From Streptomyces sp. NP-1717 (GTDB lineage Bacteria > Actinomycetota > Actinomycetes > Streptomycetales > Streptomycetaceae): a stretch of DNA of 64,000 bases. Below, one piece after another: positions 45,751 to 49,835 of the stretch (positions within the stretch are counted from its first letter, which is position 1; every line of letters begins with the position of its first letter). The translations under genes and the position numbers were made by a program. Below the pieces are notes generated by a model that saw nothing but the letters and a program-made list of their open reading frames with translations, had not been told where the DNA came from and ran no database searches. Location: assembly GCF_022695985.1 (NCBI RefSeq), contig NZ_JAAPBF010000005.1, positions 1 through 64,000 of the forward strand, read 5' to 3'.

Positions 45751-47262
45751 ATGACCGTACGGCGAGTAATGGGCATCGAGACGGAGTACGGCATCTCCGT
45801 CCCCGGCCAACCGAACGCCAATGCCATGCTCACCTCTTCCCAGATCGTCAACGCCTACGCGGCGGCGATGCACAGGGCGCGCCGCGCCCGCTGGGACTTC
45901 GAGGAGGAGAACCCGCTGCGGGACGCACGGGGCTTCGACCTCGCCCGTGAGGCCGCCGAGTCCAGCCAGCTCACCGACGAGGACATCGGGCTGGCCAATG
46001 TGATCCTCACCAACGGCGCACGGCTCTACGTCGACCACGCGCACCCGGAGTACAGCTCCCCGGAGATCACCAACCCGCGCGACGCCGTGCTGTGGGACAA
46101 GGCCGGCGAACGGATCATGGCGGAGGCCGCCGAGCGTGCCGGACAGCTCCCCGGCGCCCAGCCGATCCTTCTCTACAAGAACAACACCGACAACAAGGGC
46201 GCCTCGTACGGCACGCACGAGAACTACCTGATGAAGCGGGAGACCCCGTTCTCGGACATCGTGCGCCACCTGACGCCGTTCTTCGTCTCGCGGCAGGTCG
46301 TCACCGGCGCCGGCCGGGTCGGCATCGGCCAGGACGGCCACGAGCACGGATTCCAGATCAGCCAGCGAGCGGACTACTTCGAGGTCGAGGTCGGGCTGGA
46401 GACGACACTCAAACGGCCCATCATCAACACCAGGGACGAGCCGCACTCGGACGCCGAGAAGTACCGCAGGCTCCATGTGATCATCGGAGACGCGAATCTC
46501 TCGGAGATCTCCACCTATCTCAAGCTCGGGACGACGTCCCTGATCCTGTCCATGATCGAGGACGGGTTCATCAATGTCGACCTGGCCGTGGACCAGCCCG
46601 TCCGTACGCTCCACCAGGTCTCGCACGACCCGTCCCTGGCCCGTCTGATCACTCTCCGCAGCGGCCGGACACTCACCGCGGTCCAGCTCCAGATGGAGTA
46701 TTTCGAACTGGCTCGCAAATACGTGGAGGAGCGTTACGGCGCCGACGCGGACGAGCAGACCAGGGACGTACTGGGCCGCTGGGAGGACACGCTCAACCGC
46801 CTGGAGAACGACCCGATGAGCCTGTCGGGAGAGCTGGACTGGGTGACCAAGAAGGAGATCCTGGAGGGCTACCGCCGCCGCGACTCCCTGGAGTGGGACG
46901 CGGCACGGCTCCATCTGGTGGATCTCCAGTACTCGGACGTACGGCCCGAGAAGGGCCTGTACAACCGTCTGGTGGCCCGCGGCAAGATGAGCAGGCTCCT
47001 GGACGAGCCGGACGTCGAACGGGCCGAGACGAAGCCTCCTGAGGACACACGCGCGTACTTCCGTGGCCGCTGTCTGGAGCAGTACGCGGACGACGTGGCA
47101 GCGGCCTCCTGGGACTCGGTCATCTTCGACCTGCCGGGCCGGGACTCCCTCCAGCGGGTACCGACCATGGAACCGCTCCGGGGCACCCGCAACCACGTGA
47201 AAGAGCTCCTGGACAGGTGCCGCACGGCCGAGGACCTGGTCCGGGTGCTCTCGGGCGGCTGA
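45751..47262 (+). CDS. dop: Pup deamidase/depupylase Dop
   Basis: Dop removes Pup from tagged proteins and, in species whose Pup ends in Gln, converts it to Glu. The 503-residue enzyme is a glutamine-synthetase-like carboxylate-amine ligase homologue. [10 protein letters not shown] near the start holds metal ligands. [16 protein letters not shown] carries the catalytic Asp, and [21 protein letters not shown] and [11 protein letters not shown] follow. The Dop-specific loop around residues 40-75 is present, which separates it from PafA. ATG 45751 follows the arc terminator by about 190 bases. Because Pup here ends in Glu, its main job should be depupylation. Confidence 0.95.
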
Positions 47263-47395
47263 AATGGTCCAGGTCCGGGAATCATGGGAGTGGCCCCCGG
47301 ACGTTGCAAGAACTGCGGGGCCGATGTCGGACCCTGCTTGTAGGGTCGGATCTTGAAGGTCACATCGAGCGGGGCAACCGAGCGGGGTGAGGGTT

Positions 47396-47614
47396 ATGGC
47401 GACCAAGGACACCGACGGCGGACAGCAGAAGGCGACGCGTTCCACCGAGGAGGTCGAGGAGACGGCCGAGGACGCACAGCAGTCCGAGGACCTCAAGGAA
47501 CGCCAGGAGAAGCTGTCGGACGACGTGGACTCCGTGCTGGACGAGATCGACGACGTCCTTGAGGAGAATGCCGAGGATTTCGTTCGGTCATTTGTCCAAA
47601 AAGGCGGCGAGTAG
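47396..47614 (+). CDS. pup: Prokaryotic ubiquitin-like protein Pup
   Basis: Pup is the small, mostly disordered tag attached through its C-terminal glutamate to lysines of target proteins. The 72-residue protein is highly acidic, with a helical Arc-binding region (about 25-55, LKERQEKLSDDVDSVLDEID) followed by DFVRSFVQKGGE. It ends Gly-Gly-Glu, so it needs no deamidation before ligation by PafA. ATG 47396 gives the usual length. It lies 133 bases after dop and is followed after 7 bases by the endonuclease gene. Confidence 0.96.
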   Translation: MATKDTDGGQQKATRSTEEVEETAEDAQQSEDLKERQEKLSDDVDSVLDEIDDVLEENAEDFVRSFVQKGGE

Positions 47615-47621
47615 TTAGTAA

Positions 47622-48215
47622 ATGTCCGAATTGGGCGATGCCAAGAGATGCTCTCGATGTCAGCGGGTGCTGGAGCGAGAGGCGTTTGCGAGCAATCGCT
47701 CGACCAGCGACGGGCTCCAGGCTTATTGCAGGAGCTGCGCCGCCGACTACTACCGTCAGCGACAAGAGGCGAAGGGACGCGCGGTGCGGGTGAAAGTGCC
47801 CGTACCGCGGGGCCATAAGCGCTGTCCGCAGTGCGAAGAAGTCAAAGCACACTCGGAGTGGGAACAGAACGCGGCGACGTCAGACGGTTACGCGAGCTAC
47901 TGCAGGAAGTGCCGGGCTACTCGGCTCCAGCAGTCCTACTTCAAGCGGAAGTACGGCATCACCATGGCCCAGCGCGACGAGATGATCTCGGCGCAGATGG
48001 GCGTCTGCGTCATCTGCCTATCTGCTCCCGCCGCGCATGTGGATCACTGCCACGAGACGGGTAGGGTCCGGGGCGTACTGTGCTTCAACTGCAATTCGGC
48101 CATTGGCAAGTTGGGGGACGATCCCGACACCCTGCGCCGTGCAACCGCATACCTGGAGGGAAACGCGTGGAAGCCAACACTCGTAGCACCGGGCGTCTGC
48201 CGGCTGCCTTCCTGA
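47622..48215 (+). CDS. Endonuclease VII-type HNH nuclease with duplicated zinc ribbon
   Basis: This 197-residue protein ends in an endonuclease VII/HNH zinc-finger nuclease domain. Zinc cysteines are C128, C131, C153 and C156, with HVDHCHETG (138-146) and Asn157 forming the active site seen in phage T4 endonuclease VII. Two N-terminal zinc ribbons, C10-C13...C36-C39 and C68-C71...C94-C97, have identical spacing and similar sequence, so they are an internal duplication. Codon use is less GC-biased than in neighbours, suggesting acquired DNA. ATG 47622 lies 7 bases after pup, and the 3' end overlaps prcB by 49 bases. A role in DNA cleavage is inferred, and any link with protein turnover is unknown. 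Confidence 0.85.
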
Positions 48216-49012
48216 CGCCCGGCTCGGCCTCGTTCATGGACTTCCTGTCCGTCCACTCGCCGGAGATCCTGCCGGGCAACCGGGTGCTGCCGCCCGTCCA
48301 GGGTGCGATCGAGGCTCCGCACGGGACGACGATCGTCGCCGTGACGTTTGCGGGCGGGGTCATCCTCGCCGGTGACCGCCGGGCCACCATGGGCAACATG
48401 ATCGCGCAGCGCGACATCGAGAAGGTCTTCCCGGCCGACGAGTACTCGGCCGTGGGCATCGCGGGTACGGCGGGTCTCGCCGTGGAGATGGTCAAGCTCT
48501 TCCAGCTGGAGCTGGAGCACTTCGAGAAGGTCGAAGGCGCGCAGCTCTCCTTCGAGGGCAAGGCCAACCGGCTCTCCACGATGATCCGCAGCAATCTCGC
48601 GATGGCCATGCAGGGCCTGGCCGTCGTCCCGCTCTTCGCCGGCTGGGACGTCGATCGTGAGAAGGGCCGTATCTTCTCGTACGACGTGACGGGCGGCCGT
48701 TCCGAGGAGCACGGGTACGCGTCCACCGGATCGGGCTCGATTTTCGCGCGTGGCGCGATGAAGAAGCTGTTCCGGGACGATCTGACGGAGGAGCAGGCCG
48801 TCACCCTCGTCATCCAGGCGCTCTACGACGCGGCCGACGACGACTCGGCCACCGGCGGTCCGGATGTCGCCCGCAAGATCTATCCCATCGTCAACATCAT
48901 GAGTGACGAGGGTTTCCGCAGGGTGACCGACGAGGAGTCCTCGCGGATCGCCCGCTCGATCATCGAGCGCCGGCTGGAGCAGCCCGACGGCCCGCGCGCC
49001 GAACTGCTCTGA
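48167..49012 (+). CDS. prcB: Proteasome subunit beta
   Basis: PrcB forms the two inner catalytic rings of the 20S proteasome. The 281-residue precursor carries a 53-residue propeptide ending in His-Gly. Self-cleavage exposes Thr54 (TTIVAVTF) as the N-terminal nucleophile. The catalytic lysine lies in the GDRRAT region, and the second half has FSYDVTGG and [17 protein letters not shown] 48167 has GGAGGG 7 bases upstream and lies inside the end of the endonuclease gene, so translation may be coupled. prcA follows after 52 bases. Confidence 0.95.
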
Positions 49013-49064: not shown

Positions 49065-49835
49065 GTGTCGACGCCGTTCTATGTCTCACCCCAGCAGGCC
49101 ATGGCCGACCGGGCGGAGTACGCCCGCAAGGGCATCGCCCGCGGTCGCAGCCTGGTTGTGCTGCAGTACGCCGACGGCATCGTCTTCGTCGGTGAGAACC
49201 CGTCCCGCGCGCTGCACAAGTTCAGCGAGATCTACGACCGGATCGGGTTCGCCGCCGCCGGTAAGTACAACGAGTACGAGAATCTGCGCATCGGCGGTGT
49301 CCGGTACGCGGATCTGCGTGGATACACCTACGACCGTGACGATGTGACGGCGCGTGGGCTGGCGAACGTCTACGCGCAGACGCTGGGCACGATCTTCTCC
49401 AGCGCGGGCGAGAAGCCGTACGAGGTGGAGCTGGTTGTCGCCGAGGTGGGTCCGACGGCCGACGGTGACCAGATCTACCGGCTGCCGCACGACGGGTCGA
49501 TCGTGGACGAGCACGGTTCGGTGGCCGTCGGTGGCAACTCGGAGCAGATCAGTACGTTCCTCGACCAGCAGCACCGCGACGGGATGTCGCTGGCCGAGGC
49601 GCTGAAGCTGGCGGTTCAGGCTCTGTCCCGGGACACCAACGGCAGTGAGCGGGAGATTCCCGCGGAGCGGCTGGAGGTCGCGGTCCTGGACCGGACCCGG
49701 CCTCAGGAGCGCAAGTTCAAGCGGGTCGTGGGCCGTCAGCTGGCCCGCCTCCTTGAGGCGGACGGTGCGGCGTCCACGCCGACCGACGCTCCTTCGGACG
49801 AGGAGTCGGAGGAGTCGTCCGGCGACGCCGAGTAG
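49065..49835 (+). CDS. prcA: Proteasome subunit alpha
   Basis: PrcA forms the outer, gating rings of the 20S proteasome, where Arc docks. The 256-residue protein has the alpha signature [26 protein letters not shown] at its N-terminus (given by position, residues 2-27), and [17 protein letters not shown] starts the core fold. The last 25 residues are an acidic Ser/Glu/Asp-rich tail. GTG 49065 follows GGAAGGG. No N-terminal Thr or propeptide is present, as expected. A hairpin at 49853-49890 ends the operon. Confidence 0.95.

Follow-up and report, generated by a model that had tools for sequence, protein, structure and literature searches.

The gene that lies between pup and prcB in the Pup-proteasome operon of Streptomyces sp. 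NP-1717 encodes an EndoVII/HNH nuclease. Its distribution, its decay and its history apart from the neighbouring genes suggest that it is probably a free-standing homing-type nuclease, which would spread between species and die often without being fully removable from the operon. The gene is full length in the window, the whole stretch of 64,000 nt that was analysed. More than half of the loci examined in the genus hold only a relic of it, and nearly all of these relics keep the same short DNA core upstream of prcB.

The nuclease ORF starts with an ATG located 7 nt after the pup stop codon (47614), and its 3′ end overlaps the 5′ end of prcB by 49 nt (Table 1). The initial annotation had described an EndoVII-type nuclease in exactly this position; the gap and the overlap were both verified, and the protein matches PF02945. 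A Pfam scan of eight neighbouring genes returned a proteasomal ATPase, two Pup_ligase proteins, Pup, two Proteasome subunits and two WYL proteins, one of which carries HTH_PafC; this is the expected Pup-proteasome set together with pafB/pafC-like genes. In a search of the window's own genome at an E-value of 0.001, the nuclease was the sole match. A GC3 of 0.758 for the nuclease, as compared to 0.836 for pup, 0.901 for dop, 0.901 for prcB, 0.883 for prcA and 0.903 for pafA, bears out the earlier remark that its codon use is less GC-biased than that of its neighbours. The same holds in the genus, with a median GC3 of 0.76 for intact nuclease copies versus 0.93 for the start of prcB. A permissive Shine-Dalgarno-like pattern is present within 18 nt before prcB in all 245 genus loci, and lies inside the nuclease frame wherever that frame survives. 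Finally, a search of positions 47100-48400 against Rfam returned only two matches, both far below their gathering scores.

Table 1. Features of the pup-prcB region, in positions of the window.
Feature	Positions	Strand	Basis
dop-like gene (Pup_ligase family); upstream flank in trees	45751-47262	+	PF03136, E 1.3e-193
pup	47396-47614	+	PF05639, E 3.3e-29
EndoVII/HNH nuclease gene, full length, 197 aa	47622-48215	+	PF02945, E 1.7e-25; PHROG 2633, E 5.2e-43
First CxxC...CxxC zinc-ribbon-like repeat, residues 10-39	47649-47738	+	63-protein alignment
Second CxxC...CxxC zinc-ribbon-like repeat, residues 68-97	47823-47912	+	63-protein alignment
EndoVII (beta-beta-alpha-Me) nuclease domain, residues 107-179	47940-48158	+	Pfam match, AlphaFold2 model
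Block CATGTGGATCAC-N10-CGGGTAGGGTCC, with core GGGTANGGT, over HNH active-site codons	48036-48069	+	conservation
Putative -35 of prcBA promoter, TGGATC	48040-48045	+	predicted from conservation
Putative -10 of prcBA promoter, TAGGGT, 16-nt spacer	48062-48067	+	predicted; within kept core
GGAGG, Shine-Dalgarno-like, for prcB; within nuclease frame	48155-48159	+	sequence
Overlap of nuclease 3′ end and prcB 5′ end, 49 nt	48167-48215	+	ORF coordinates
prcB, GTG start	48167-49012	+	PF00227, E 2.3e-42
prcA; downstream flank in trees	49065-49835	+	PF00227, E 1.8e-18

At the protein level, the PF02945 match covers residues 107-179 and reaches 89.2 bits, against a gathering score of 23.6. Among the 63 aligned proteins, C10, C36 and C39 of the first zinc-ribbon-like repeat are invariant and C13 is nearly so, and all four cysteines of the second repeat (C68, C71, C94 and C97) are invariant. 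The initial annotation had stated that the active-site and zinc residues are intact. Indeed, the eight named residues (C129, C132, D141, H142, H144, C154, C157 and N158) are all present, and each is at least 97% conserved in the 103 intact copies of the genus. The DH[CD]H motif is found in 100 of these 103 copies, and 92 combine it with at least five CxxC motifs. The AlphaFold2 model, computed from a 63-row alignment, has a mean pLDDT of 84.8 and a pTM of 0.57.

The nearest solved structures by sequence are Hpy99I and T4 endonuclease VII. Hpy99I comes closest, with an E-value of 1.6e-5 over nuclease residues 66-179, and is also the best Foldseek match of the model (3fc3, E 1.2e-4). However, the TM-score over the whole model is only about 0.19, and the Pfam scan found no cognate methyltransferase for type II restriction among the eight neighbouring genes. 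T4 endonuclease VII (gp49) shares PF02945, its chains matching residues 117-164 (phmmer E 7.5e-4), but it lacks the two extra N-terminal zinc ribbons of the nuclease described here. The EndoVII domain also occurs in phage proteins: PHROG 2633 matches residues 63-181, and gp257 of Streptomyces phage Starbow is 33% identical over residues 7-178. Nonetheless, in a careful tree, built from 55 rows, a branch of weak support (70/91) separates off 15 of the 19 viral rows. The other four, which are long-branched, fall among the pup-prcB copies.

The genus sample comprised 246 genomes. Of 216 genomes searched for prcB, 215 had it; together with 30 nuclease loci these gave 245 parsed loci, and the genome without a prcB match (G079) was left out. 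A copy was called intact when an open frame matched from residue 30 or earlier to residue 175 or later, with the 49-nt overlap. On this definition, 103 of the 245 loci have a full-length nuclease and 142 an eroded one. Five of the intact loci have a pup-prcB interval below 500 nt, which corresponds to in-frame shortening. In the 136 decayed loci that were measured, the interval ranges from 105 to 589 nt and is below 450 nt in 118; no pup stop was set for the remaining six (L032, L098, L200, L213, L214 and L286). Assembly errors in draft genomes may account for some of the relics with a single frameshift, but not for the deletions. The nearest sampled relative of the window by prcB DNA (96%, with 92% for pup and 93% for part of dop) has a decayed locus with a 275-nt interval.

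Mapped on a dop+pup+prcB tree of 242 loci, the intact or decayed state requires at least 48 changes, whereas 200 shuffles of the labels average 77.6 and never fall below 67. The state thus partly follows descent, with many independent events. Intact copies evolve under purifying selection, as the initial annotation had proposed to check: their median omega is 0.244, versus 0.094 for prcB (247 close pairs, nuclease pS below 0.45).

Other features of these loci were recorded. In many of the pup-prcB intervals of about 105-175 nt (such as L154 and L036), the pup stop is immediately followed by a strong GC-rich hairpin; two that were folded gave -32.6 and -49.5 kcal/mol, with z-scores of -5.0 and -7.0. 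This hairpin is possibly an attenuator, or a transcript-end stabiliser, that separates the expression of pup from that of prcBA. The palindrome CCTTCGAATCGAAGG, or a variant of it, is located just 3′ of the pup stop in 53 of the 103 intact loci and in 29 of the 136 measured decayed ones (L028 and L088, for example), and may regulate the nuclease. It is absent from the window, and in the one example that was folded the whole stretch was no stabler than shuffles. Moreover, many genomes of the genus (including G009, G003 and G213) encode a second PrcB-like protein elsewhere, mostly with about 53-65% identity.

We compared the history of the nuclease with that of its flanks, dop+pup upstream and prcB+prcA downstream, in the 59 intact genus taxa with longer flanks. 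The nuclease tree shares only 6 and 5 of 56 splits with the upstream and downstream flank, respectively, whereas the flank trees share 17 of 56 with each other although the nuclease lies between them. Distances follow the same trend, with correlations of 0.15 and 0.24 between the nuclease and the upstream and downstream flank, versus 0.53 between the flanks. Of 37 strong nuclease splits, 30 and 32 conflict with strong splits of the upstream and downstream flank. A second group gave a comparable picture: in 60 Micromonosporaceae loci taken from the best relatives, the nuclease shares 5 of 57 splits with each flank and the flanks share 32 of 57. The distances of nuclease and flanks nevertheless still correlate at 0.65-0.68 in this group, versus 0.92 for flank against flank. 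This conflict is not noise, since trees of odd and even nuclease codons agree with each other in 25 of 56 splits in the genus and in 34 of 57 in Micromonosporaceae. The nuclease was therefore not simply carried down with the operon, and these trees make it very likely that it has been exchanged horizontally without its flanks.

The gene itself is a mosaic, since its N-terminal and C-terminal halves share only 10 splits in the genus and 12 in Micromonosporaceae; ordinary recombination thus acts on it too. The C-terminal half has 15 of 57 splits in common with prcB+prcA in Micromonosporaceae, and 6 of 56 in the genus. In windows of 90 nt, all six nuclease windows correlate at 0.01-0.28 with either flank; flank windows correlate at 0.08-0.72 with the opposite flank, some of them as poorly as the nuclease (0.08-0.23). 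Co-conversion of the flanks, which homing should leave behind, is weak or absent, as partial correlations of flank windows range from -0.08 to 0.31 with no clear rise towards the gene.

Outside the genus, we examined 83 prcB loci, from 71 of 108 genomes of the class that have prcB (about one per genus) and from 12 of 12 genomes of the order. An EndoVII match of at least 100 residues lies between pup and prcB in eight of them, one being interrupted (L264), and three have a short, relic-like match. In 40 loci prcB follows pup within 40 nt, 27 have longer gaps with no EndoVII match, and in five pup is lacking from the stretch. Relatives were also searched with an alignment of six pup-prcB copies. 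Among the best 80 of at least 578 confirmed relatives, 77 sit between pup and prcB, a predominance favoured by a query built from such copies. The other three, from Nonomuraea, have pup 24-25 nt upstream. These 80 belong to Micromonosporaceae, Streptacidiphilus, Actinacidiphila, Nonomuraea, Actinomadura, Frankiaceae MAGs and an unplaced actinobacterial MAG. A separate set, the 80 best viral relatives, contains none at prcB.

The survey of actinobacterial pup-prcB loci that the initial annotation had called for thus finds the nuclease in Micromonosporaceae, Streptacidiphilus, Actinacidiphila, Actinomadura and Frankiaceae records as well. The view that the insertion is old and kept stands in so far as the association is widespread and the intact copies are selected. 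Steady retention does not stand, either in the genus, where most copies are eroded, or beyond it, given the 40 loci in which prcB lies close behind pup.

In the careful tree, a single clade of all pup-prcB copies as against viral ones is not rejected (p-AU 0.39). A transfer from Micromonosporaceae to Streptacidiphilus and Actinacidiphila, which had looked likely in a quick tree, is unsupported, a single Streptomycetaceae clade not being rejected either (p-AU 0.264). The careful tree leaves out all EndoVII fragments from other places in the genus, many of which were less than half filled and unreliably placed in the quick one. In other families, five loci at or beside pup-prcB (L310, L315, L439, L443 and L447) hold single frames with two fused EndoVII domains; the two EndoVII hits in L310 and in L315 belong to one ORF each, not to two genes. 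In three families (f10, f15 and f30), the PrcB matches of some members were flagged with one internal stop codon.

The strongest rival to homing is a host nuclease for defence or DNA repair, whose alleles would be shuffled by homologous recombination under changing selection, for instance by phages, and lost where unneeded; the link with the proteasome would then be functional. Purifying selection on the intact copies fits such a role, as do the kinship with Hpy99I and a PADLOC match to REase_II (3.2e-6), and the internal mosaicism and the absence of clear co-conversion are what ordinary recombination would leave. However, no methyltransferase accompanies the gene among the scanned neighbours, and prcB has outlasted the nuclease in more than half of the genus loci. 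Furthermore, every insert identified at pup-prcB across families is of the EndoVII kind, in a search that targeted EndoVII; gaps above 130 nt without an EndoVII match occur in 13 of the 83 loci outside the genus. Altogether, we regard a defence or repair nuclease as possible but unlikely.

The relics retain the 3′ end of the nuclease, and within it a block over the HNH active-site codons. Its core, GGGTANGGT, is exact and at a constant distance from prcB in 97 of the 103 intact loci. The core is also exact in 127 of the 142 relics, where 0.84 would be expected from shuffled intervals; that expectation ignores the common descent of the relics, and the count is thus not to be read as a probability. 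Eleven further relics hold the core with one mismatch. It is missing even at one mismatch from only four of the 142, namely L153 (two mismatches), L142, L163 and L032, the last of which has almost no upstream sequence. Around the exact core, neighbouring bases that played no part in the selection of loci are conserved as well, with CATGTGGATCAC upstream and CC immediately after. This per-base profile uses exact-core loci only, so that the core bases are fixed by the choice of rows and the unbiased measure is the count of 127 plus 11 relics.

The upstream half of the block is more variable. TGGATCA is present upstream in 85 of the 127 relics with an exact core, and in 75 of the 86 at near-normal spacing. 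In 41 relics, which include most of those with the shortest intervals, the exact core lies only 41-90 nt from prcB; TGGATCA is left in 10 of these, and 26 have GGATGA instead.

The protein does not seem to impose this conservation. The codons ACG GGT x GTC x GGC are invariant in 101 of the 103 intact copies, those with the TGxVRG motif, although in the same genes GGT makes up 18% of glycine codons and ACG 49% of threonine codons. The core is missing from all four sites that could be read in 19 EndoVII stretches at other places in genus genomes. It is likewise absent at eight readable sites in pup-prcB loci of other families, in seven of the 11 loci scanned. Since EndoVII sites elsewhere do without it, the protein does not demand the core codons.

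Promoters of the main sigma factor have the -10 consensus TANNNT and the -35 consensus TTGACN. The TANGGT of the core (TAGGGT in the window) fits the former; the -35 half matches the latter weakly and differs in most of the 41 short-spacing relics. From this conservation, we think it likely that the block is the prcBA promoter, trapped in the nuclease gene. The strict pattern GGATN14-16GGGTANGGTCC has a single match in the window and in the whole of its own genome, so that no regulon comparison is possible. No paper on a prcB promoter was found in open-licence PubMed Central.

Outside the genus, five of the 83 loci have GGGTANGGT in the 700 nt that precede the PrcB match. Two of these, L281 (where a short EndoVII match is present) and L284, represent a different family within the same order. 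L282 and L284, both from outside the window's family but within its order, carry a GGTAAGGTTCGAGGT block at 108-110 nt upstream of the PrcB match, where no EndoVII match was found; it is perhaps a very old relic of the nuclease element.

The kept 3′ segment could also be explained by translation, if the nuclease frame served mainly to start prcB by coupling at its 3′ end and the relics kept a short coupled frame and not a promoter. The 49-nt overlap is found in 234 of the 245 genus loci, although its recurrence alone proves little since the overlapping bases encode PrcB too. In the 49 relics with unchanged spacing, conservation between the core and prcB is codon-like, an in-frame stop occurs in one of them, and 47 have an ATG, GTG or TTG upstream in frame, which makes a translated role possible. 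Against coupling as the main cause, 33 relics that are frame-shifted between the core and prcB still hold the core, 41 have it close to prcB at shortened spacing, and its codons are not needed by the protein. We thus consider coupling a rather improbable account of the kept segment. As for a passing, functionless insertion that entered once and was lost by drift, erosion in 142 loci and the lower GC3 would suit it, but it is rejected as very improbable by an omega of about 0.24 among intact copies, by the recurrence of such genes at this site in several families and by the exchange seen in the trees.

We come back to the homing-type nuclease, for which we propose the following course. First, the nuclease would cut pup-prcB alleles in which it is missing or survives as a relic, and the gene would be copied in when the break is repaired from an occupied donor. 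Copies would then pass between species separately from the flanks, as the trees indicate, and resident copies would become non-functional and decay, starting at their 5′ side and middle, as seen in the relics. Finally, erosion would mostly halt at the 3′ segment, whose retention is observed and which holds the Shine-Dalgarno and start region of prcB together with the promoter-like block. The element would be hard to remove because the nuclease can die and a proteasome promoter inside it cannot.

Several hallmarks of homing are found at this locus. One fixed site has occupied and unoccupied alleles (103 of the 245 genus loci are occupied and 142 are relics, and 40 of the 83 loci outside the genus have prcB within 40 nt of pup), the gene has a history independent of both flanks, and degenerate copies lie at the same site. 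As expected for an embedded promoter, the DNA block is kept after loss of the frame. That mobility is driven by the gene's own cutting is a prediction that we favour slightly. Evenly balanced, in our judgement, is the wider proposal of a chromosomal homing lineage dedicated to the Pup-proteasome, which would have captured the proteasome promoter in its active-site codons; hosts could kill such an element but not expel it, and its relics would be re-invaded.

Parallels exist in phage T4. According to an excerpt of PMC2988022, segG (before gene 32), segA, segE, mobB and mobC contain, within their own coding sequence, promoters for the genes that follow, which is said to favour their retention. 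The free-standing homing endonucleases of T4 described there resemble the present gene as stand-alone intergenic nucleases that spread horizontally, with a downstream promoter inside the gene (a putative one in our case). Unlike them, the nuclease described here resides in a housekeeping operon of a bacterial chromosome and combines an EndoVII fold with two zinc ribbons, and its putative promoter lies in the active-site codons. For phage homing nucleases near essential genes, a passage of PMC10448857 warns that bioinformatics alone often cannot tell active homing, and this warning applies to our nuclease too.

A search of open-licence PubMed Central found no paper that links the nuclease with the pup or prc operon; a portion of PMC12451607 mentions EndoVII as a phage gene. 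If the proposed reading is true, a selfish nuclease would have supplied the promoter that controls a core protein-degradation operon of actinobacteria, which would amount to selfish-gene addiction through promoter capture in a bacterial housekeeping operon. Deletion of the ORF may then silence prcBA, and the phenotype of a knock-out could be mistaken for the function of the nuclease. Moreover, the many decayed copies would offer a natural series in which to follow how homing nucleases are gained, die and become domesticated in cellular genomes.
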